DNA of 24,311 nucleotides from a virus. Below are positions 4,282-15,995 of this stretch, one piece after another. The position numbers were made by a program, and so were the translations under genes. The notes beneath the pieces were generated by a model, which saw only the letters and a program-made list of their open reading frames with translations, did not search any database and had not been told where the DNA came from. The stretch's first letter is position 1. Every line of letters begins with the position of its first letter. The DNA is taken from IMG/VR virus record IMGVR_UViG_3300009593_000119, positions 1 to 24,311 of that record; one strand, written 5' to 3'.

Positions 4282-4993
4282 GTTTAAGTTTCAATGAGAT
4301 AACAAATCTACTGATATTAATAGAGTAGAGTACCTCAAATTGAAATATGTCACCTGAATATACTTCGGTAGACCAAGTAGAAAGGGTATCATTTTTTGCC
4401 TTTCTTTCTTGTGAATTATTTAATACACCTAACTGTGGCAATTCTGTACCACATATAGATGTGAAATTTGGGAAGGTATCGTAACTACATTTTTGAATAT
4501 CTAGTTGTAGATTACCCTCATCTTCAGTAATAATTGTCCAAGATTCTATAATACCAGTAACATCTATTGTCATGTTACCTTTGATTCCTGGATTGAGTGG
4601 ATCAGATCCACTATCAATAACATAATTAAGAGTCCTTGTTAAATCAGCAGTCGTTGCATATGCAAGACCAAAGAATGGACTTGATAATGTAGGTGGAGTA
4701 CTGAAAACAATTTTATCGTCTGATATAGTATAATCAGTACCTGGTTCAAGCATTTCACCATTAACAGATATCATCAACTGTTCATCATTAAGAGGATAAT
4801 ATGGATCTCCATCAATAGTTAAAGAGAATGTATCTTCGGTACCATTAAATTGACCAGATATATTATCTAATTTCTTATTGGTAAACTGTGTTGATTTAGA
4901 AGGTATCTCATAATTAACATCAAGTGTGTATTGTGGCGATGGACGCTGTGCTACACGATGAGTATTATTTCCAAGTCTGACATTATATGCCAT
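4277..4993 (-). CDS. Two-module tail/virion protein (238 aa)
   Basis: The ATG at 4991-4993 shares its A with the TGA of the upstream 112-aa gene (TGATG), which suggests translational coupling. Residues about 45-115 match a module common in phage tail proteins, with the pattern FNG..TF.L....PL....LMISVNGEMLEPG.DY.I....I.F. Residues about 120-238 form a second beta-sandwich-like module seen at the C-terminus of many phage appendage proteins: GIKGNMTIDVTG.IESWTI.....G...LDI.K......P, then STW.TEVYSGD.F.FEV......R....LKL. No catalytic motif is visible. It is the last gene of a three-gene unit (62, 112 and 238 aa), ending inside the next late promoter. A fibre or baseplate decoration role is inferred from fold pattern and context. 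Confidence 0.75.
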   Translation of the reverse strand: MAYNVRLGNNTHRVAQRPSPQYTLDVNYEIPSKSTQFTNKKLDNISGQFNGTEDTFSLTIDGDPYYPLNDEQLMISVNGEMLEPGTDYTISDDKIVFSTPPTLSSPFFGLAYATTADLTRTLNYVIDSGSDPLNPGIKGNMTIDVTGIIESWTIITEDEGNLQLDIQKCSYDTFPNFTSICGTELPQLGVLNNSQERKAKNDTLSTWSTEVYSGDIFQFEVLYSINISRFVISLKLKL

Positions 4994-5331
4994 CAGGATA
5001 CCCCATAATTTATTTCAGCAAGACCTTCTATAACCCTTGTTTTATAATCATTAGGAGAAGTTAATAGTATATCATATACATATCTTCTTCTACTTAAAGC
5101 AGATGTTTCAGCAGGGGTTAATGCAATTTGAACATGTCCAAGAGTCCTATCAAGAAATGATAATGTAAATGGAATTCGATCAGTTTCTTTAGCAGAGAAA
5201 CTTTTCTTCAAAGCAGCCTTACCAGTATACCCTGCCATGTTAAGCGGAGTACCATCTTGGTTTGTAATGTAAAAAGAAGTGTCGAAGTTTGCTCCTTGAT
5301 CAATTAGTATGTTAACTGGGACTGCTGCCAT
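4993..5331 (-). CDS. Small beta-sandwich virion protein (112 aa)
   Basis: It starts at ATG 5331, inside the 3' end of the 62-aa gene (20-base overlap), and ends in TGATG with the 238-aa gene. The sequence follows a pattern widespread in phage structural regions: an N-terminal IDQGANFDTSFYITNQDG, then NMAGYTGKAALKKS, then LGHVQIALTP.ETSAL..RRYVYDILLTS and a closing TRVIEGLAEI.YGVS. Such ~110-residue proteins resemble the beta-sandwich N-domains of baseplate or fibre proteins (LtfC/BppU-like), and I infer that role here. No Shine-Dalgarno is evident, so its translation probably depends on that of the 62-aa gene. Confidence 0.72.
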   Translation of the reverse strand: MAAVPVNILIDQGANFDTSFYITNQDGTPLNMAGYTGKAALKKSFSAKETDRIPFTLSFLDRTLGHVQIALTPAETSALSRRRYVYDILLTSPNDYKTRVIEGLAEINYGVS

Positions 5332-5500
5332 CGTTTACATCTGCTGTTTGTTTTTCAAGTAAATCTAGAGTTTCTAAACCACCTTCGAGTTTTAATTTAT
5401 ACTCTTTAAGTTTATCAATCTCTTCCTCACCTTTCTTAATTCTAAAAGCATAATCTTTCAATTGTGCTTCGAATTCTGATCGCATTTTTGATGTATCCAT
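5312..5500 (-). CDS. Small coiled-coil protein (62 aa)
   Basis: ATG at 5500, stop TAA at 5312-5314. Residues about 5-52 are strongly charged and heptad-like (EFEAQLKDYAFRIKKGEEEI, then DKLKEYKLKLEGG), predicting one long helix or coiled coil. It has no signal peptide or membrane segment. It opens the 62-112-238 aa unit, 22 nt after a GATAAATA box, and overlaps the next gene by 20 bases. Similar tiny helical proteins precede appendage genes elsewhere in this window (20453..20641). An assembly helper or connector is only a guess; no family was recognised. Confidence 0.7.
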   Translation of the reverse strand: MDTSKMRSEFEAQLKDYAFRIKKGEEEIDKLKEYKLKLEGGLETLDLLEKQTADVNDGSSPS

Positions 5501-5522
5501 AGCAAAAATATATTATTACTTA

Positions 5523-5530
5523 TATTTATC
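5523..5530 (-). promoter_or_regulatory. Late promoter-like box GATAAATA
   Basis: The minus-strand octamer GATAAATA matches the cyanophage form NATAAATA and differs from T4 TATAAATA only at its first base. It lies in the 45-bp gap after the subtilase gene, 22 nt before the ATG of the 62-aa gene. Confidence 0.5.
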
Positions 5531-5545
5531 TAGGAATTCAAGTAT

Positions 5546-7726
5546 CTATATTATAGTAATCGTACCATGCATTGACCCATGAATCTCACAGTTATAATGA
5601 TAAGTGTTCTTCGGAACACCAGCAGTGTTCCATATAAGTGGTCCTACCTGTGTTCCATTATTTTTAATACCCTCTGGTTGATTGGAAAGACTAGGTTGAC
5701 CAGTGGTTTGTGTCATAGTAATCCACATAGGATGACCATCAAATCCTGATCCTTTAAACTGTAATATATCACCTTGATTAATCACTATTGCTGGATCGGG
5801 AGCATCATTAAAAGTACTCTGTCTATCACTACCAGTCATTATATAATCACCTGGTGCAGAAACAATTGTTATAGTATATACTGGAGTTGGTAAAGATCTA
5901 TAAAAATTATTAGTTCTAGGATACATTTGAGCATTATAGAACATATATGATGGTCTCCTCTCACCTTTCAATGTTTCTTTATACCACCCATCAATAAGAC
6001 CACTTACATTTCTTGGATTAATTGCTCTTATTTCTCTAGTTGTAGAAGTAGATCCACCATGTAATGGATTTGCTCCACCAGCAGCAGACATATCATCAAA
6101 CAAACCACCATTAATATCAAATGTCATTTCATTTTCATAAGAATTATGCTGTATAAATCCCTTTACATCACTATTAGTAAATCTTTCTTTACCTGTTGCT
6201 AACAATGCTGCGATACCACAAACTTGTGGTGATGCCATGCTAGTTCCACTAATAGGATATCTCCAATTAGTACCACCATATTTGTTGTCAACCATACCAT
6301 CACCATTCCTTCCTGATGCAGCATAGATGCCACTTGGATCTGGCCAAGCACTTTGAATCCAATGTCCAGGTGCCCAAACATCAATCACTGGTCCAAAATT
6401 AGAAAAGTCTGACTTTCTAAAATCAGATTCATTTGAAATAGAACCTACAGTAATACAACCATGTGCATTAGATGGAGAAGATCCTCTATGATGATTAAAT
6501 GAGTATGTACCTCCACTAGGAAGATTAAAAGTTATCTTATTATTCCAATCAACAAATTCTGGTGTTAATGAATTTGCCTTTATACCATACTTATCATTGT
6601 TACCAGCAGCAGCAATAACAACTACACCCTCATCAATGGCATCGTTCATGTCATATCTTGTCGCAGTGCTATCCCTATTATATCTGTAATCATTTGCACC
6701 TATACCAAAGTCTGCAGATATTCCTGCCATTGTCCATCCACTAGGACCAGGATTAGCAGCATTGTATGTTATACCACGAACTATAATTTCATTTATATCA
6801 GTTGGAACTAATGCTCTTTCGAAAAATGAATATATTTTCCAACTAGATCCCCAACTATGATTTGTTACTGTAGGATTTTTTTTACCTGTTAAAGGATTAA
6901 TTGGTTTGTATCTATGGAATGCTCTCAAATAATCAAATACTAATGTAGATGTAACAGGAGTTCCAAAACCACTACCAAGATTTATATGTAAACTATAAAT
7001 GTTTGCTTCTCTTGCCCAACCATAGTATTGTCCAGCAACAGTACCTGCTACATGACAACCGTGATATGTTGAATTACCACTATTGGGATGATATACATAT
7101 GATCCTGAAGGAAGTGCATTACCATCATCATCTATACTACCAACATATTGATTTAACTCGGTATACCAATCATATTGTACAAATCTACTTTGTCCAGTAG
7201 TAGGACTATCCCATTCAGCACAATCATATGAAACTGGTTGATCAACAATAACTACATCAACATGTTTTCCATCAGCAAAAACTTCAAGATCGTCATTAAA
7301 GTTTGCAGTTTTTCCTACATCACCTCCCCATAATCCCTTTCTTCTTTGAGCAGTGCTTCCAGCAGAATGTAAATGTCCCCACTGTCTGTCATTATCACCA
7401 TGTAGATAGGTTGCTCCTCCCTTTTCAAAATCTCCATTAAATCCATATGGAGTATTATTAACTTCAGAGTAGTAATTATTAAAAGGTTCAATAACTCCTA
7501 TTGGATCATCATCTATATTAATTTCAACAGCAGCAACCCTAGAATCACTTCGTATATCTTCTGCTTGTGTACTATTCATATAGTACTCTGTACTTCTACT
7601 AATAGGACGTTTTCGATGAAGATGATATCCATCTGATGCCATGTCCGAATAGAAACCTTCTAAATCAGATTTATTTTCAAGTGTAACAACATATAATTTA
7701 TTATCTGAATGATCGTATAGTCCCAT
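5546..7726 (-). CDS. Subtilisin-family (S8) serine protease with C-terminal cupredoxin domain (726 aa)
   Basis: ATG at 7726, one base after the TGA of the 427-aa fibre gene; GAGG precedes it by about 7 bases. Residues ~10-72 resemble an inhibitor I9 propeptide (YVVTLENKSDLEGF ... IRSDSRVAAVEI). The S8 catalytic domain spans ~155-520: Asp162 in VDVVIVD, His222 in YHGCHVAGT, oxyanion Asn376 in AAAGNN, Ser496 in SGTSMASP. All four key residues are present, so activity is expected. The canonical HGTHVAG reads HGCHVAG, placing Cys224 beside the catalytic His. Residues ~616-726 are cupredoxin-like with His665, Cys713, His716 and Met719. No signal peptide is seen, so export is unlikely; packing into the virion with its fibre neighbours is inferred. 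Likely roles are processing of virion proteins or digestion of host surface protein. The protease call is very sure; the copper function is inferred. Confidence 0.95.
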   Translation of the reverse strand: MGLYDHSDNKLYVVTLENKSDLEGFYSDMASDGYHLHRKRPISRSTEYYMNSTQAEDIRSDSRVAAVEINIDDDPIGVIEPFNNYYSEVNNTPYGFNGDFEKGGATYLHGDNDRQWGHLHSAGSTAQRRKGLWGGDVGKTANFNDDLEVFADGKHVDVVIVDQPVSYDCAEWDSPTTGQSRFVQYDWYTELNQYVGSIDDDGNALPSGSYVYHPNSGNSTYHGCHVAGTVAGQYYGWAREANIYSLHINLGSGFGTPVTSTLVFDYLRAFHRYKPINPLTGKKNPTVTNHSWGSSWKIYSFFERALVPTDINEIIVRGITYNAANPGPSGWTMAGISADFGIGANDYRYNRDSTATRYDMNDAIDEGVVVIAAAGNNDKYGIKANSLTPEFVDWNNKITFNLPSGGTYSFNHHRGSSPSNAHGCITVGSISNESDFRKSDFSNFGPVIDVWAPGHWIQSAWPDPSGIYAASGRNGDGMVDNKYGGTNWRYPISGTSMASPQVCGIAALLATGKERFTNSDVKGFIQHNSYENEMTFDINGGLFDDMSAAGGANPLHGGSTSTTREIRAINPRNVSGLIDGWYKETLKGERRPSYMFYNAQMYPRTNNFYRSLPTPVYTITIVSAPGDYIMTGSDRQSTFNDAPDPAIVINQGDILQFKGSGFDGHPMWITMTQTTGQPSLSNQPEGIKNNGTQVGPLIWNTAGVPKNTYHYNCEIHGSMHGTITII
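5549..5881 (-). other. Cupredoxin domain of the subtilase (amicyanin-type copper loop)
   Basis: Residues about 616-726 of the protease. The block begins YTITIVSAPGDYIMTGSDR, continues with IVINQGDILQFKGSG and GHPMWIT (His665), and ends YHYNCEIHGSMHGTITI. Cys713, His716 and Met719 give the C-x2-H-x2-M spacing of amicyanin, the shortest natural type 1 copper loop. With His665 the usual ligand set is complete. Metal binding itself is inference. Confidence 0.78.
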
Positions 7727-7727
7727 A

Positions 7728-9011
7728 TCATGCCTCTATTTGAACATATGTTAATGTTACTGTAACGTCTGCTGTATTACCACTCTTATTAACTACCTTT
7801 GCATATATGTTAGTAGTTGGTGCTCCAGGATCATTATTCCATCCAATAGTACCTGGAGTAATAATTTGTGTAGCACCATCATCTGTAATAATTTCTGCAA
7901 TTACACCTGAACCTGGAAGTGGATCTGTTGTTTCAAGTCTAGAAACATCATTAGTTCTACTTGTAGTATCAGTATAAAGAGTTACCCATGAAGCGTGTGT
8001 TGTTTGAATTTTTAATAAACTAAATGCTTTTGCTGCAGTAATTGTTATATCTGCTGCTGCAGCATCAGCTAAACCTGAAGCAGTGGCAGCACCAGTTGTT
8101 CTGGAAGATAATCCAGTAGAAGCACCACCAGTAGCATCAGTACCAGGAACCCAATTAGAACCATCCCATTTCAATATTTCTCCAACAGCAGGTGCTGTAG
8201 TTGTGTCAACATCTCCTAGGTCATTAATACCTGATGGAATAGATGGTTTATTAGTTAGATCACTCCAGTCACCAGAAAAAGTAGAGAAGGAAGAAAGATC
8301 TGGGGGAGTATATGTGAATAGACCTGAAACATTATTATATGAAAAAGAACCACCACCAGAAGCAGAATTACTAGAAGCAGAAAGATCTGTTAGAGAGATA
8401 CCCCCTCCTCCACCACCGCCACCACCAGATAAATCTGGTGCTGCAATCCATCTAGAACTAGTACCATCCCATTTTAAAACATGACCATCAGTTACAACAC
8501 CAGTAACATTAACATCTGTTATATCATTAAGAGCAATAGCACCAACACTAGTTACGTATCCAGCTTGACTATGGTCACCCCAACTATATGCTGTATTCCA
8601 ATTGGCAGGAGTATAATTTGTAGGAGTAATTTGTGCTGATGTTGCACCAGATCTTAAATTTATTTCTTCTAGTTCACCTAATTCAGTTACAAGTAAATTA
8701 TTTACAAAAGTTTTATTTACTCTACTATCAATTTCACCAATTGCTCTAGCACTTGTATAGAATAAACCATTTACACCCTCTGTAAGATTGGTTGTTGTAA
8801 ATTCTGTAAAATCTATTGAAAGAGTATAAGTATTATTAGTATCATCATAAACTGAAGCAATACCATTTCCAGCACTTACTAATGAATTTATTCTATCATC
8901 AACTTTTTCATTAAAATTAACATCAATATCATTTACATCACCAGCAAGATTGTTTATTACTTGTCTCTGTTGATCTAAAGTATATGTTATTGGTACGTTT
9001 CTTAACGTCAT
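7728..9011 (-). CDS. Modular tail fibre protein with polyglycine hinge (427 aa)
   Basis: ATG at 9011, 24 nt after an AATAAATA box, with AAGGA upstream. The N-terminus MTLRNVPITYTLDQQRQVIN is shared with the 1052-aa fibre (MTLRNVAKDFSLEDQRQEIN) and probably docks both on the same virion site. The middle has fibre repeats known from phages: YSWGDHSQAGY, LNDITDVNVTG, and two copies of EILKWDGSNW-type motifs (about 178-188 and 278-288). A run of nine glycines at about 196-204 makes a flexible hinge. Residues ~305-427 form a beta domain that recurs as the C-terminus of the 214-aa protein (WVTLYTDTTSRTND / PLPGSGVIAEI), a likely receptor-binding or capping head. Its stop lies 1 base before the subtilase start, so the two are probably co-translated. 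Confidence 0.82.
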   Translation of the reverse strand: MTLRNVPITYTLDQQRQVINNLAGDVNDIDVNFNEKVDDRINSLVSAGNGIASVYDDTNNTYTLSIDFTEFTTTNLTEGVNGLFYTSARAIGEIDSRVNKTFVNNLLVTELGELEEINLRSGATSAQITPTNYTPANWNTAYSWGDHSQAGYVTSVGAIALNDITDVNVTGVVTDGHVLKWDGTSSRWIAAPDLSGGGGGGGGGISLTDLSASSNSASGGGSFSYNNVSGLFTYTPPDLSSFSTFSGDWSDLTNKPSIPSGINDLGDVDTTTAPAVGEILKWDGSNWVPGTDATGGASTGLSSRTTGAATASGLADAAAADITITAAKAFSLLKIQTTHASWVTLYTDTTSRTNDVSRLETTDPLPGSGVIAEIITDDGATQIITPGTIGWNNDPGAPTTNIYAKVVNKSGNTADVTVTLTYVQIEA

Positions 9012-9035
9012 AGTACTAGCATTCCTTGATAATAG

Positions 9036-9043
9036 TATTTATT
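9036..9043 (-). promoter_or_regulatory. Late promoter-like box AATAAATA
   Basis: The minus-strand octamer AATAAATA matches NATAAATA and lies in the 33-bp gap before the 427-aa fibre gene, 24 nt from its ATG. The distance is almost the same as for the boxes at 5523 and 12584. Confidence 0.5.
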
Positions 9044-9044
9044 A

Positions 9045-9326
9045 TTACGTGTTAGATGGAGTCCACTGTTTACCCCTTGGAAACAATTGTCCAGAACCTG
9101 GTCTTTGTGGATTGGTATGTCTATCTGAATCAGTTATTGTGTGATCAAATAATGATGATACAGTTTTTGGAACATATGGAACTTTTTCATCACCCCAAGA
9201 TTCAAATCCGTCAGGAACATTAGTGAAATTACCTAATTGAGATCCCTTAAGATGCTTTGTTTTATTATTTCTATCAACAGGAGATTGTATTGTGTGAAAT
9301 GAAGTAGCACCATTTGGAAAATTCAT
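9045..9326 (-). CDS. Small protein of unknown function (93 aa)
   Basis: ATG at 9324-9326 overlaps the TAA of the 863-aa gene by one base (TAATG); AGGA about 9 bases upstream supports the start. It is hydrophilic, without signal peptide, membrane segment or clear repeats, and rich in Asn, Ser, Thr, Pro and His. The start MNFPNGATSF recalls the INFP/ITFP openings of the 214- and 432-aa fibre proteins, so it may be a short relative of those N-terminal modules or a truncated fibre. I do not recognise a family. Tight coupling to a virion gene argues for a virion or assembly role. Confidence 0.65.
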   Translation of the reverse strand: MNFPNGATSFHTIQSPVDRNNKTKHLKGSQLGNFTNVPDGFESWGDEKVPYVPKTVSSLFDHTITDSDRHTNPQRPGSGQLFPRGKQWTPSNT

Positions 9327-11917
9327 TAGGTTGTCCTCGCACAGAATGCTATACCTTTACAAGAATTCTGCGAAATTCCATCAAATGTTTTTTGATTTAC
9401 AGTATATGAAACTTCAATAATCTTATATATTTCAGAAGCAGAAACTTCAATGTTATCTCCAGTATGGAATGTAGTAGCACCTGGAGTTACATTAAATGGT
9501 ATTACAACATAATCATCAGGAAGATAATAAGGAACTGGTGCCCAAGTATTCTGTATAGGTAATCCTTTTATTGGTTTATAATAATCAGCAGCTGCATCTA
9601 TTGCTGTCTGTGATGGTATATCTGATTTATTTCCAGGATAGTAATCAGGCGAATTCTGATAATCATAGCTTCCACCAGTTGATGTTCCTATCTGCCCACC
9701 ACGATATTCAACATCAACTTCTGCTTTATCTCCCTTATAATCTTTAGTATCTACACGTTTATCAAAAGCACTATCTCTAAAATATGGTTTTATTGTGTCA
9801 GTTTCAATATTGTTGGTGTACATATTAGTACTGTAATATGTGCTATGAGACATACTAGAAGTTGAATCGTTTTCAGCATCTCTAAAGTATCCGTATTCTG
9901 CACATCTTCTTAATGCTTTATCCTCACCTAATTGTTCTTCAGTCCCTCTATAATTCTTTGCCATATGTGTCTCAAAAATGATAATTTCTTCAACACCACC
10001 ATAATTACCAGGTCTAAAGTTCGTAAAACCACCTTGCCAAACATGATCTAAATCCCATATCCCATTACCAATAACAGTTCCTTTATGGAAATATAATGAC
10101 AATTGTGATTCATCATTACCTGCAACATTTTGAACAAACTGAAGAATATAGAAGTTTGGATCTTGAGGATCATTGGTGTTTGATTTCCAAACTTGTACCT
10201 TCAATGGATAAGAATTGGCATTAGATCCAACTCCATACTGGAATTCAGCATAATGACTATCATTATAAGTAAAAGAACGTTGATTTTCTGCAATATCAAA
10301 TCCTGATTGACCCTTCCATGAACCTTCATAAGTATCGGAAGTAGATGTTGGATTCCAGTTTAAATAGTTCCAACCAACTCCTGCCCCTATTTGTAGTTCA
10401 TATTCGTTAGCAGGATTTAATTTGATACCATAAAAAGTAGTACCATAAGTTTTATTAGCATCATTTGTTATTTCTACAATTGCTGAATTAACTTGATTAT
10501 ACCTTGCCCAAAAATTAGTACCACCACTACCAATATCCATCACCTGAACACTAGGTACAGCATTTTTATCAGCTATTTGTTGAGTAGTAGCTGAATTTAC
10601 ACCAAATACAATATCATGTGTTGGTGTACTACCACCTGTTTTATCTCCTGGTATAGTAAACACTTCATCAGCAGACCAACCTTTTGCATCTGGTGTTTCA
10701 ACCCTTATTCCAGAGATCTTTCCATATTCACTAGAATTTTGTTCGTAAGTACGTCTATAAACTCTAAATGTACATGCCTCTCTACCTCCACTAGCAGGTA
10801 CTTCATAATCCCAATAAGGTTGATTATATGTAGTAGTATATGTACGTGTATTTGGTTTTACTTCTATATCAAGTTGCATTGCAGGATGATTTTTACATTG
10901 CAATACATAAGTTCCTTGAGTCCAATTTCTCATATGCCAATGAATTAATCCACTACTAACATCTAATTCCACATCACCTGCTGGCATGGTTCTATAACTT
11001 AAATTAGTATAATGAGTAAATGTAGCATTATCTGTTTCTTTTAATTGTCTAACATCACTATATGTACCACCTGGGAAAGTTAAACTAGTATCATCAGTAT
11101 CAACAAAAACAATAGGATGTCCTGCAGTATTGGTTAAATGGAATGTAATATAATCTTCTTGATTAGCTGATATTTTAGTTACTGCAGGAAATTCAAATTC
11201 TAGATCATATACATTGATATCATCATTATGATCTGCAGTATTTCCAGACCACTGACTAGCAAAAGTTATTGCATTACCTGCAAGAGCATCAGCATTTGAT
11301 GCTGCTAATTTAAATACATCTGGATATTGAGTCTGTACTGTTATATCAGTATAATCATCAGGTATAATCAGATAATAAGGATTACCAACCACTAATTCTG
11401 GTGGTAAAGTACCACCACCACTAGGATTTCTTACAATAACTTCCTGCCCTGTTACATAACCATATCCAGCACAAATATGTTTCAAACCACTAACTTGATC
11501 TAAATCTACACCATTAGTTGTATTGGTAGTATAATCTTGCCATTCACTTCCCATCCTATTGGAATAAATTTCACCATTAGTGTAGATAACGTTAGGTTGC
11601 CAAATAGGATTCGCAACAAAAGCACCACCATTTACACTTAATCTTATATGATGAAATGCTTGATATGGCATTTTGACTTGACCACCACCAGTATTTTTCC
11701 AATTAATATCATTCCATCCACCATAATTATATGGTTCTCCAGAACCAGGAGCAAGACAATTAACTATTACACCACCTTTCCTCTCACTAGAACCATGAAC
11801 ACCAGCATCTGCTAGTACTTGTTCTATAGCACTTAAAACATCGGTTCTAGACCATCCTGTGGTTCCTTCGGTGCCACCAACGTGACGAACAAAAGGTGTG
11901 TTATTTTGTATTGCCAT
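9326..11917 (-). CDS. Large virion/tail fibre protein with cupredoxin domain (863 aa)
   Basis: ATG at 11917 abuts the TAA of the 214-aa gene (TAAATG). Residues ~18-60 (TTGWSRTDVLSAIEQVLADA ... KGGVIVNCLAPG) resemble the N-terminal domain of large fibre-like proteins in marine T4-like phages, and the C-terminal GIAFCARTT ending is also typical of them. Residues ~247-356 form a cupredoxin-like domain: ANQEDYITFHLTNTAGHPIV with His267, then YVLQCKNHPAMQLDIEV with Cys341, His344 and Met347, the same C-x2-H-x2-M loop as in the subtilase. The rest is aromatic-rich beta sequence without known catalytic motifs. It is the middle gene of a 214-863-93 aa unit. A virion surface protein is well supported; copper binding is inferred. 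Confidence 0.8.
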   Translation of the reverse strand: MAIQNNTPFVRHVGGTEGTTGWSRTDVLSAIEQVLADAGVHGSSERKGGVIVNCLAPGSGEPYNYGGWNDINWKNTGGGQVKMPYQAFHHIRLSVNGGAFVANPIWQPNVIYTNGEIYSNRMGSEWQDYTTNTTNGVDLDQVSGLKHICAGYGYVTGQEVIVRNPSGGGTLPPELVVGNPYYLIIPDDYTDITVQTQYPDVFKLAASNADALAGNAITFASQWSGNTADHNDDINVYDLEFEFPAVTKISANQEDYITFHLTNTAGHPIVFVDTDDTSLTFPGGTYSDVRQLKETDNATFTHYTNLSYRTMPAGDVELDVSSGLIHWHMRNWTQGTYVLQCKNHPAMQLDIEVKPNTRTYTTTYNQPYWDYEVPASGGREACTFRVYRRTYEQNSSEYGKISGIRVETPDAKGWSADEVFTIPGDKTGGSTPTHDIVFGVNSATTQQIADKNAVPSVQVMDIGSGGTNFWARYNQVNSAIVEITNDANKTYGTTFYGIKLNPANEYELQIGAGVGWNYLNWNPTSTSDTYEGSWKGQSGFDIAENQRSFTYNDSHYAEFQYGVGSNANSYPLKVQVWKSNTNDPQDPNFYILQFVQNVAGNDESQLSLYFHKGTVIGNGIWDLDHVWQGGFTNFRPGNYGGVEEIIIFETHMAKNYRGTEEQLGEDKALRRCAEYGYFRDAENDSTSSMSHSTYYSTNMYTNNIETDTIKPYFRDSAFDKRVDTKDYKGDKAEVDVEYRGGQIGTSTGGSYDYQNSPDYYPGNKSDIPSQTAIDAAADYYKPIKGLPIQNTWAPVPYYLPDDYVVIPFNVTPGATTFHTGDNIEVSASEIYKIIEVSYTVNQKTFDGISQNSCKGIAFCARTT
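10850..11179 (-). other. Second cupredoxin domain with intact copper ligands
   Basis: Residues about 247-356 of the 863-aa protein. The order of parts matches a small blue copper fold: a first His in AGHPIVFV (267), then a final strand-loop-strand YVLQCKNHPAMQLDIEV giving Cys341, His344 and Met347. It is internal rather than C-terminal, and apart from the ligand motifs differs from the subtilase domain, so it is not a recent copy. Confidence 0.7.
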
Positions 11918-12562
11918 TTAATTATCGCCTATTTCTACGAGTGTTAGTTTTACTTGGATGTTCTGGGCAGAACTTGTTCTGTTAGTAACAGAAGCATAAA
12001 TTGTATTTGTCCTAGGAGTATCATTGTTAAATCCTAGTACTGAAGGTGTGAGTACTACAACCTGTCCAGTAGTTGTAGTTCTAACTTCAGCAAGTAATCC
12101 TGATCCTGGACTAGGATCATTACCTTCACTTCTATTAATATCATTATCTCTAGAGGCATCATCACAATATAACCTTACCCAGGCATCATGTGATACTTCT
12201 ATTTTAAATAATGCATAAGCATTATGTCCTGTTATATTTAGTTCTCGTGCCTCTCCTGCTGGGACTGCTATTGCAGTACCAGGGATCTCTTGAATAGAAG
12301 GAACCCCAGTACCACTACTACCTTGGGCACTTTCATTATGCCATCCCAGTGCAGCAGTATAAGTTAAAACTTGATCATCTTGAAGATTAGAAACAGTTAC
12401 GTTCGCAAGATCTTGAATATTGCTTACAAGACCAGTTGGTGAAACACCTTGTGCTTTCCAGGATACTGTATCCCATTGCCAAGTAATACCTGAAGTAGCA
12501 TCAGTAAATTGATCACCATTATTTAATTGATTCGATGCATTAGTAGGGAAATTTATTGCCAT
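11918..12562 (-). CDS. Short tail fibre protein (214 aa)
   Basis: ATG at 12562, 21 nt after a CATAAATA box. The N-terminal module (residues 1-40: MAINFPTNASNQLNNGDQFT ... ITWQWDTVSWKAQG) is the common INFP...GDxxT...W..D...W opening of phage fibres, also seen in the 432-aa protein. A short linker (SNIQDLANVTVSNLQDDQVL, ~47-66) follows. Residues ~95-212 repeat the C-terminal domain of the 427-aa fibre: AYALFKIEVSHDAWVRLY, DPSPGSGLLAEV, LGFNNDTPRTNTIYASV. It is thus a minimal fibre of anchor, linker and head. It ends TAA directly against the ATG of the 863-aa gene. Confidence 0.78.
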   Translation of the reverse strand: MAINFPTNASNQLNNGDQFTDATSGITWQWDTVSWKAQGVSPTGLVSNIQDLANVTVSNLQDDQVLTYTAALGWHNESAQGSSGTGVPSIQEIPGTAIAVPAGEARELNITGHNAYALFKIEVSHDAWVRLYCDDASRDNDINRSEGNDPSPGSGLLAEVRTTTTGQVVVLTPSVLGFNNDTPRTNTIYASVTNRTSSAQNIQVKLTLVEIGDN

Positions 12563-12599: not shown

Positions 12600-15500
12600 T
12601 TAACTTATACCTCCATCGTAATTATCATATGGATGATTACCTACTCCTGATTCCACTGTTGGATCTTCTGCCAAATTAGTATAAACATGAGGAGCTTGAG
12701 CAGCATTATATCCATAGATAGCATTATTTAAATCTTCAGTATTTGTAGAAGGGAATGAACGACCAGAACCCCAGATAATTCTTACAGCACCAGTACATCC
12801 TTTCCAAGCAGCACCTCCACCAGTAGGAGCTCCTGACCCTTGTCCTCCTGCAGGTCCCCATACTCCAGCGTCAGCACCAGCACCACCACCATAATATCCA
12901 CCAGCAACAGCCCCATTATAAATCTGCTCATTCTGACTATAAGGAGGATGTCTTCCATCTCCACTTAACCAACCTCCATTTGCAGGATCTCTACGAATTA
13001 CACCAGCTTTCGCCCACAACCAATGTATTGAACCGCCTTTACCAACAACTGATGGTGCTTGATCATCATCACCTCCACCAACACCATTATTACCTTCTCC
13101 CCATATTCCTGTTCCACCACCACCACCAGCAACAGCACCATACCTACCATCTGGGGGATTTATTTGTGCGTCACCAACTGAATCAGATCCACCGCCACCA
13201 GCTCCACCACCAGTTCCATCTTGACCAGATCCACTGTTAGCACCATCACCACCACTTCCTGAATACCCACCAGCTCCACCACCACCTGTTCCATTATTTC
13301 CAGTACGAGTACCTCCACCGTTTCCACCGTTTCCACCACCGTCTCCTACATAATCTCCACCTTGAGCAATACCATTACCTATTCCTCTTCTACCACCCTG
13401 ACCTCCACCACCTTTAACAGTAGTTGCGTCTATAAAATATGAATCTCCACCATTAGTACCAACATCTGGACCTGATTGAATCTCTGTGTTTGTGGATGGG
13501 AATGCTCTACCTAAACCCCATAGAATTCTTACTGCCCCATTAGATCCAGCAATACCATTACCACCACCTCCACCAGAACCAGGCCCTAAACTAGGGAATG
13601 CTGCAAAAGTTTGTGGATCTCCACCAGATCCACCTTTTCCACAGTGTCCATAAGATCCAGAACCACCACTATCATATGTACTAGCACCAGCACCATTAGT
13701 ACCTTCTCCTTCTAGTCCTACACCACCACCAGCACCACCTTCCCAAGATGCACCAGCACCTCCACCACCAGCACCACCATTACCTTGATTACCAGAACTT
13801 GCTCCAAAACTTATTCCTGTTCCACCCATTCCACCATTACCTGAATATCCACCAGCTCCACCGCCACCACCAGCATAAGATCCATTCTTTGATCCACCTT
13901 GACCACCATTTCCACCACCATCTCCTGTCCAATCACCACCAGTTCCACCATTATTAGTTGTACTCGGACTTCCACCACCACCTCTAACAGTGTTGTAGTC
14001 TAGAAAATATGAATCTCCACCACCTGAATTTTTATTACCAACAACTACAGTATAAGATTGTCCTGGTGTTACAGAAATATTATTTTTCCATCCAAGACCA
14101 CCACCACCATCTCCATGTTTATCAGCACCACCATCACCACCAGCACCTACACAAACAGCAGATACTGATGTAACGTCAGCAGGACAAGTCCAACTATAAG
14201 ATCCTGGCGTTGTCCATTCTTGCTCACCTGCATCGATTGGAACATCATTACCACCAACAACAACAGTATATGATTGACCTGGTGTTACTGAAATATTATT
14301 CTTATATCCTAAACCTCCTCCACCACCACCATCACCTGCAGGATTACCAGATGATCCTGTCCAAGTTTGGTTGGGTGTTGAAGAACCACCACCTCCTCCA
14401 ATACAAACTACAGAAACTGATGTAACATCAGCAGGACATGTCCAACTATATGTTCCTGCTACTGTATATTCTTTTTGACCCACTGCAAAGTTATCATCAA
14501 AACCAGTATAAAAAGTATCAACTGTGGGTCCATTACAAGCTAACAATTTAGTATCAGGTATTTGCTTAACTGGTTCTATATGACTTGAATTCCAAGTATC
14601 TGCACCATATACAGCTCTTCCTGTAACAACACGAACATTAGATATCTGTCCAGCCATAGCAGTACTTTCTCCTGATCCTTGACCATGACCACCAATAGCT
14701 ATCCTCTTCGTACTCGTATCATTAAGATCAGGCATACTAGCAAATTGGAATAAATCTGAATTACTTCCAGAATATTGATGGGTACGATTCCCACTCATAA
14801 AAAGATATAAACCAGTACCTATTCTTTCAAAAACAACATGTCTCCAAGAGTCACTCCCATTCTCACTATCATGTGATAGTAAATGATCTCCACCCAAATA
14901 CCATCTTATTTCAGCATCTTCACCATTACCTCCATAAGCATCTTTATTAGCCTGATTCTGATGATACCATCCGACTGAATTAGTTCCAGTAGGAGCAATC
15001 TTCCATGTAACTTTATTATTCTCATCCAAACCTTCGATAAAAGGAGAGTTGATACCTGCACTACCTAGACCCCAATAAGTTTGACCTGGTGCACCTACTC
15101 CAGGTCTCCACCAAAACTCAATTGTCCAATTATAATTTCCTAAATGAAAATAATTTGGTGTTGGTGGTGTAACTATCAAATATTGAAAATTATATGCTCC
15201 TTTAAATTGAACACTAGATCTTCCATCAATATTAGGAGTTCCATCACCAATTGGAGTATCCCAACTTATACGAACTCCACCATCTCCACCAGCCCCACCA
15301 GATCCAGTTTGTCCACCACCAGTCAGACCCTTTCCACCAGCACCTCCATATAATCCACCAACTCCACCAGTAGATCCATTAGAAGTTCCACTTGGAGGTC
15401 CACCAACACTTCCAGTTTCTCCGAATACTAATGGTACTCCAACTGAACCTGTGCTGCCATTATTTCCACCAGTTTGTCCTTTATATGAATAATCTCCACC

Positions 15501-15995
15501 TTGTACCCATTGTGTTGCTGGATGGCCATTACCACCTACAGCTCCACTCCTGTGTCCATCTCCACCTGATTTAATTACACCATTACCTTCGGTGAACATA
15601 CCTTCTCCACCAGTTTGTCCATAATAACCACCACCATAAGCTTTTACAATATATTGCCCATTAGATTGTCTTTGAACGTATGATGTATTTCCATCACAAT
15701 CATTATAATCAACACTACCCCATACATGTCCAGGACCACCAGGTCCCACACAAACTACTAAAGTTTCTCCAGGAGTAACAGAAACACCATCAGTCCAAAC
15801 TAAACCACCACCACATGCACCATTAGAACTACTTCCACCTGTTGATCCTCCACCGCCACCACCAACAGCCATTATGTTAATATTAGTTACACCAGCAGGA
15901 ACAACAAAGTTAGTCGTTGCTCCAACAGTAGATGCCTCAAAAGTTATATGAGTTTGTTGAACTCCATGAACAAGTAACTGCTGTACAATAGCCAT
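12600..15995 (-). CDS. Glycine-rich adhesin with LamG-like domain (1131 aa)
   Basis: ATG at 15995 overlaps the TAA of the 432-aa gene (TAATG). Residues ~26-246 are a first glycine-rich module: a beta head (TNFVVPAGVTNINIMAVGGG) and a Gly-rich tail ending GGVRISW. Residues ~258-490 look like a LamG/concanavalin-type jelly roll (NWTIEFWWRPG, SWRHVVFERIGTGLYLF, AGQISNVRVVTGRAVYG, DTKLLAC). Residues ~507-1087 hold two more copies of the Gly-rich module, apparently nested (heads at 507 and 590, tails ending GRAFPSTNTE at 838 and GRSFPSTNTE at 1087). Long glycine arrays of this sort form polyglycine-II bundles in the gp38 adhesins of T-even phages such as S16, so a receptor-binding tip is the best inference. 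The LamG part suggests binding to surface carbohydrate. Plus-strand frames here are His-rich artefacts. Confidence 0.85.
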   Translation of the reverse strand: MAIVQQLLVHGVQQTHITFEASTVGATTNFVVPAGVTNINIMAVGGGGGGSTGGSSSNGACGGGLVWTDGVSVTPGETLVVCVGPGGPGHVWGSVDYNDCDGNTSYVQRQSNGQYIVKAYGGGYYGQTGGEGMFTEGNGVIKSGGDGHRSGAVGGNGHPATQWVQGGDYSYKGQTGGNNGSTGSVGVPLVFGETGSVGGPPSGTSNGSTGGVGGLYGGAGGKGLTGGGQTGSGGAGGDGGVRISWDTPIGDGTPNIDGRSSVQFKGAYNFQYLIVTPPTPNYFHLGNYNWTIEFWWRPGVGAPGQTYWGLGSAGINSPFIEGLDENNKVTWKIAPTGTNSVGWYHQNQANKDAYGGNGEDAEIRWYLGGDHLLSHDSENGSDSWRHVVFERIGTGLYLFMSGNRTHQYSGSNSDLFQFASMPDLNDTSTKRIAIGGHGQGSGESTAMAGQISNVRVVTGRAVYGADTWNSSHIEPVKQIPDTKLLACNGPTVDTFYTGFDDNFAVGQKEYTVAGTYSWTCPADVTSVSVVCIGGGGGSSTPNQTWTGSSGNPAGDGGGGGGLGYKNNISVTPGQSYTVVVGGNDVPIDAGEQEWTTPGSYSWTCPADVTSVSAVCVGAGGDGGADKHGDGGGGLGWKNNISVTPGQSYTVVVGNKNSGGGDSYFLDYNTVRGGGGSPSTTNNGGTGGDWTGDGGGNGGQGGSKNGSYAGGGGGAGGYSGNGGMGGTGISFGASSGNQGNGGAGGGGAGASWEGGAGGGVGLEGEGTNGAGASTYDSGGSGSYGHCGKGGSGGDPQTFAAFPSLGPGSGGGGGNGIAGSNGAVRILWGLGRAFPSTNTEIQSGPDVGTNGGDSYFIDATTVKGGGGQGGRRGIGNGIAQGGDYVGDGGGNGGNGGGTRTGNNGTGGGGAGGYSGSGGDGANSGSGQDGTGGGAGGGGSDSVGDAQINPPDGRYGAVAGGGGGTGIWGEGNNGVGGGDDDQAPSVVGKGGSIHWLWAKAGVIRRDPANGGWLSGDGRHPPYSQNEQIYNGAVAGGYYGGGAGADAGVWGPAGGQGSGAPTGGGAAWKGCTGAVRIIWGSGRSFPSTNTEDLNNAIYGYNAAQAPHVYTNLAEDPTVESGVGNHPYDNYDGGIS
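12735..14477 (-). repeat. Two glycine-rich modules, one apparently nested in the other
   Basis: Within the 1131-aa adhesin, the order is head 1 (residues ~507-582), head 2 (~590-655), tail 2 (~657-838), tail 1 (~848-1087). Heads share GTYSWTCPADVTSVSVVC and NNISVTPGQSYTVVVG. Tails share GGDSYF(L/I)D..TV(R/K)GGGG, GDGGGNGG, GGGGAGGYSG and GAVRI(L/I)WG.GR(A/S)FPSTNTE. Confidence 0.7.

Follow-up and report, generated by a model that had tools for sequence, protein, structure and literature searches.

Phage tail enzymes are mostly known to act against sugars or peptidoglycan. What, then, does a complete subtilisin-like protease do directly behind a tail-fibre gene? This question is raised by a gene for a 726-residue protein (ATG start; positions 5546..7726, minus strand) on a virus fragment of 24,311 bases, which was analysed as a whole and is called the window here. 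The nearest phage record was Marine virus AG-345-P14 (Kyanoviridae), which aligned to 76% of the window with 87.1% identity. An earlier note, made by reading the sequence, had proposed an S8 subtilase carried on or in the virion, which either matures fibres or cuts host surface proteins during adsorption. The open reading frame and its catalytic residues D162, H222, N376 and S496 were all recovered as described there, while a C-terminal cupredoxin, covering the last ~113 residues, had been overlooked. Open reading frame, Pfam, PHROG and structure model together described an S8 subtilase gene with a cupredoxin at its end; the whole product resembled phrog_9158, a family of unknown function, with an E-value of 2.7e-179. 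We assign a probability of roughly 55% to the reading that the product is a late-expressed subtilase zymogen at the tail-fibre tip, which cuts host surface proteins during adsorption.

Using tblastn, relatives were found in 44 phage records, nearly all of cyanophages, and a profile scan of IMG/VR yielded at least 558 stretches with relatives. Contrary to what had been supposed, an intact subtilase at this place is thus not unusual. The protease relatives studied were the best 80 of the at least 558 IMG/VR candidates. The copy of the window itself (L001) was excluded, and L004 duplicates L003, both being from the same phage. Several contigs were near-identical, and 63 of 79 remained at 88% identity. 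Alignment A2 comprised 40 sequences, the window and 39 drawn from these 63; alignments A3, A4 and A6 consist of chosen members and not of full sets. Homologues are already annotated as S8 peptidases in the cyanophages S-H9-1, S-WAM2 and S-H38, and also as T4-GC 292 in P-SSM2. The S8 peptidases mentioned for P-HM1 and P-HM2 (T4-GC518; PMC3037559) were likened to them by description only, as given in the accessible part of that source. The published accounts found give, in their accessible parts, no function, no link to a tip domain and no cupredoxin for these annotated peptidases. Cyanophage subtilases are therefore known already. For the fibre pairing and the cupredoxin no printed account was found among open-licence papers, and among the same papers no phage-tail subtilase or phage-tail cupredoxin was found described.

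The S8 catalytic domain (residues 94-570; 6017..7447, minus strand) was assigned by its structural match and its unsubstituted catalytic residues. Pfam Peptidase_S8 (PF00082) matched with an E-value of 7.5e-26 and 91.5 bits versus a cutoff of 21.8, so the subtilase match is not due to chance, and a chance open reading frame was ruled out by the same value. The AlphaFold model of the whole protein reached a mean pLDDT of 79.2 and a pTM of 0.66. The structural superposition suggested in the earlier note was carried out and led to proteinase-K-like enzymes, with residues 94-570 aligning best to 2b6n_A (Z 32.0, 2.2 A, 273 residues). Among 105 aligned stretches, Asp, His, Asn and Ser of the catalytic set were kept in 102, 102, 103 and 104, respectively; the remainder were gaps in fragments and none was a substitution. 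All four were present in 40 of 40 sequences of alignment A2. Outside the 105-stretch set, S-CAM1 carries Glu at the position of Asp162. The protein shares its fold (Z 31-32) and catalytic set, and probably its N-terminal propeptide, with the proteinase-K-like S8 subtilases 2b6n, aqualysin I (4dzt) and proteinase K (2prk). Unlike these, it shows no signal peptide by eye, has a catalytic domain of ~477 versus ~280 residues due to large insertions, ends in a cupredoxin and is encoded by a late gene paired with a fibre gene. The "subtilisin-like" domain of phage tail sheaths (PF04984) resembles it in name alone. In one such sheath the subtilase-like domain is reported to lack the triad, in the accessible part of the account (PMC13118943), whereas the window protein has the full catalytic set. 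A sheath domain was ruled out by this set together with the Peptidase_S8 match above the cutoff.

An I9-type propeptide was placed at residues 1-88 (7463..7726, minus strand), based on PF05922 matches in the family and on drops in pLDDT and conservation. The earlier suggestion of an I9-like propeptide held at the family level, where PF05922 (Inhibitor_I9) was found in 23 of 35 aligned members at E<=1, mostly weakly and at best with 5.4e-4, but not for the window's own N-terminal domain, which gave zero Pfam matches including PF05922. A profile of the propeptide run against solved structures returned spectrin only, a chance match. Residues 10-75 are conserved, with 15 of 66 positions invariant in A2; pLDDT falls at residues 76-88 and conservation at 76-93, and cleavage probably takes place inside the low-confidence linker 76-93. 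The N-terminus showed no hydrophobic stretch by eye, in agreement with the earlier statement that a signal peptide is absent. Taken together, the catalytic set, the fold match and the conserved I9-type N-terminus give the gene product, as judged from sequence and model, the build of an active subtilase zymogen with predicted activity.

The cupredoxin (residues 614-726 with ligands H665, C713, H716 and M719; 5549..5887, minus strand) was defined by model, profiles and ligand conservation. As the structure search with the whole model listed the S8 part only, residues 607-726 were modelled separately, reaching a pLDDT of 93.4. All 50 matches listed by VIA-align were blue-copper or multicopper proteins, the best being 6tfo_C, the N-terminal domain of a three-domain nitrite reductase (Z 10.5, 1.9 A, 92 residues); the best Foldseek match had an E-value of 2.5e-5. 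A profile of 32 members found plastocyanin and amicyanin as top solved relatives (E 0.004-0.006). Pfam Copper-bind (PF00127) was found in 29 of these 32 at E<=0.1 and above the cutoff in the relatives L092 and L102; the window's own cupredoxin gave no match to PF00127. The four ligands were invariant in 32 of 32 chosen members (A3; 10 invariant columns in all) and in 37 of 37 A2 rows reaching those columns, and among 81 protease ORFs that contain a cupredoxin stretch, 77 had one or more complete ligand sets. Where cupredoxins occur in tandem, ten relatives had a copy without its ligands (patterns such as ESNV), the last copy being intact. The persistence of full ligand sets where other copies degenerate argues for a copper site in use, and from these sequences the C-terminal cupredoxin very likely binds copper. 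Fold and ligands resemble those of the blue copper proteins plastocyanin, amicyanin, rusticyanin and 6tfo, and the C-x2-H-x2-M spacing is that of amicyanin. In contrast to free blue copper electron carriers, the domain is here built into phage tail proteins, either alone or as tandem copies, and some of its copies are degenerate. In S-CAM1 the S8-like protein SXBG_00005 (L111:4299-6554), which lies downstream of a tip-domain gene (see below) and carries the Glu mentioned above, has its cupredoxin inside the S8 domain and apparently circularly permuted, with the C-H-M loop ahead of the HPF His.

The cupredoxin was missing from 20 of 98 complete protease ORFs and is thus not essential to the protease. 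The same module was found in the baseplate-fibre connector family phrog_677 and in the tail spike gene of P-SSM2 that adjoins its protease, and an 863-residue protein of the window showed a partial match to it. A stray host petE gene was ruled out, as the cupredoxin forms the C-terminal part of the protease and is found again in further tail proteins. A hypothetical protein with a four-ligand cupredoxin, adjoining collagen-like genes, was also observed in the freshwater Actinomycetia phage DSL-LC01 (L026:4020-5405), so the module extends beyond cyanophages. Since other tail proteins carry the same module, its probable role is that of a contact or docking unit stabilised by the metal; a redox role is possible. 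More doubtful is a further step, in which copper-loaded, redox-capable cupredoxins on the fibre-tip protease and other tail proteins would have a copper site working in infection. If true, this site might, for instance, sense or exchange electrons at the envelope of the photosynthetic host, or gate the protease. In the literature searched, no earlier account was found that deals with conserved blue-copper-type sites in the tail proteins of phages.

The fibre gene that had been reported one base upstream of the protease is present at 7728..9011 (minus strand) and encodes 427 residues. Ahead of the pair lies the late-promoter-like box ATAAATACTAT (9032..9042, minus strand), and the next such box (5523..5529, minus strand) stands ahead of the gene at 5500. 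Both resemble the T4 late consensus. The late-type box named in the earlier note was thus found, but ATAAATA is rarer in the window than expected by chance (5 versus 13.2). All 5 copies lie on the coding strand, 22-57 nt ahead of gene starts. As boxes of this type stand before 9011 and before 5500, the late unit probably consists of the fibre and the protease only.

A survey of phage genomes, likewise suggested before, found relatives in the 44 records. The adjacency of fibre and protease was near-invariant: of 99 protease ORFs, 97 had an adjacent frame upstream, in 85 cases one base away. The last ~115 residues of the fibre form a conserved tip domain (7731..8105, minus strand), which we propose as the mount of the protease and for which 0 of 28 members matched a Pfam family. 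By eye it was common to the upstream fibre frames, barring distant forms and the S-TIM54 fusion; these distant forms, of P-SSM2, AG-345-E02, S-SCSM1, Sf-CH5 and S-T4, end in another motif, which they share among each other (also by eye). Among annotated phages, a long S8 match (>=72% of the query) was always accompanied by the tip domain (28 of 28 records, with several entries duplicating one phage). Using the tip domain as bait, 84 tip frames were obtained in 80 loci, 82 of them with readable downstream sequence. These were followed by a subtilase in 78 cases, by a second protein class in 3 and by no frame in 1. We are aware of the fact that 78 of 82 is biased upwards, since 27 of the 28 rows of the bait alignment (A4) were protease-linked and only the 80 top-ranking of 570 candidates were used; some contigs were also identical to those of the protease scan.

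The tip domain recurs in another gene of the window (214 residues; 11918..12562, minus strand), which is followed by the 863-residue protein (9326..11917, minus strand), a class 2, non-protease partner, and S-BM3 likewise has a tip-domain gene with a non-protease partner. Judging by these two pairs, the tip domain appears to be a mount of general use. The 863-residue protein had no PHROG match. In S-H9-1, S-BM3 and S-SCSM1 a relative comes after a tip-domain gene, the one of S-SCSM1 being virion-marked, and the 863-residue protein appears to be another, non-protease partner of the tip, conserved at its C-terminus. In S-BM3 a gene of ~8 kb annotated as "peptidase S8" (SBM3_00202, T4-GC_519; L112:1-1328) lies near SBM3_00199, the tip-domain gene that has the class 2 protein as its direct partner. 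Further genes of the window encode a glycine-rich repeat protein of 1131 residues (12600-15995; phrog_4474), with a GC skew of -0.53 at 13001-14000, and a fibre-like protein of at least 915 residues (2-2746), which is cut by the window end and contains, by eye, repeated units (YDYNPLSHAIFEKRDFGSV..., GSGTLFNF...).

Behind the protease other domains were found as well: a Laminin_G_3 lectin in L096 (Pfam), an esterase-like domain in L101 (just under the cutoff) and L016 (weaker), and glycine-rich domains in L057 and L076. In L016 (S-MbCM7; 4986-7907), L083, L100 and L101, ~300 added residues lie between the S8 domain and the cupredoxin, and it is the inserts of L016 and L101 that appear esterase-like by weak Pfam matches.

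Evidence for a place in the virion came from distant relatives. In S-SCSM1 the S8 domain lies inside the 1411-residue SSCSM1_228, marked "virion protein", and in S-TIM54 within a 2140-residue protein labelled as virion structural protein. We counted 48 "virion protein" marks in the S-SCSM1 record, and 45 proteins are given for its virion mass spectrometry in the accessible part of the report (PMC9602691); with this difference the mark is good but inexact evidence of detection. Non-structural genes such as the translational repressor SSCSM1_70 are marked and some predicted baseplate and fibre genes are unmarked, which suggests that the mark records detection and not prediction. The proposal of a virion-linked protease is thus supported by the near-invariant gene pair, the fusions into large virion proteins and the S-SCSM1 mark, and of the two roles offered in the earlier note, host-surface cutting is somewhat favoured over fibre maturation. 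Against the proposal counts that the virion mark sits only on a 27%-identical relative (S-SCSM1), with none for a close form of the gene, and that the peptidase of S-CREM1 is not named among its 14 virion proteins in the accessible part of that account.

From the computed fold, catalytic and ligand sets, gene pairing and module shuffling we infer the virion position in this phage, the activity, the substrate and the copper in the following way. Fibre and protease would be expressed late from the two-gene unit, and the subtilase zymogen would join the phage tail by docking on the conserved tip domain at the fibre's C-terminus. The protease itself would remove its I9-type propeptide. At adsorption it would cut cyanobacterial surface proteins and thereby clear or expose the receptor, with the C-terminal modules as exchangeable contacts with the host surface. 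The unsubstituted catalytic residues, the fold match at Z 32, the conserved propeptide, the fibre pairing, the fusions and the modules all count for this reading. In T-even phages the adhesin gp38 is encoded directly after the fibre gene of gp37. The arrangement here is alike in gene order, with a partner directly after the fibre gene and proposed at the fibre tip; it differs in that the partner is an enzyme.

Alternatively, the protease might act during assembly, cutting the upstream fibre or a nearby tail protein, and stay in the particle perhaps only incidentally. Such a maturation protease would agree with the close link to a single fibre gene within a late unit and with the lack of a visible signal peptide. 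However, the same tip domain also precedes a non-protease partner, so maturation of the tip does not require the protease; relatives are fused into large virion proteins; and lectin, esterase-like and cupredoxin modules at the C-terminus fit a surface role better. As these modules are swapped behind the protease, the evidence leans toward the host surface, and we consider maturation unlikely. The constant fibre pairing, the fusions of S-SCSM1 and S-TIM54 into large virion proteins and the virion-marked relative in S-SCSM1 argue against a protease acting outside the virion, either inside the cell or after release at lysis. The late box and the signal peptide missing by eye would suit an enzyme freed at lysis; nevertheless, we regard it as highly improbable.

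A bound propeptide could also block the active site for good, with the S8 fold acting as an adhesin. In PCSK9, which the structure search also listed (Z 28-29), the propeptide stays bound and blocks the active site. In S-CAM1 the gene pair persists with Glu in place of Asp162, which counts against host-surface cutting and, for this phage at least, speaks for a structural or binding role. In the other relatives studied, however, the catalytic residues are unsubstituted, which is hard to explain without catalysis, even if autoprocessing alone could preserve them. A purely binding role is therefore quite unlikely in our view.

With cutting of host surface proteins from the fibre tip as the preferred reading, a widespread tail-fibre protease would, if true, be one means by which cyanophages overcome the protein coat that surrounds Synechococcus and Prochlorococcus, and may offer a handle on the host range of these phages.
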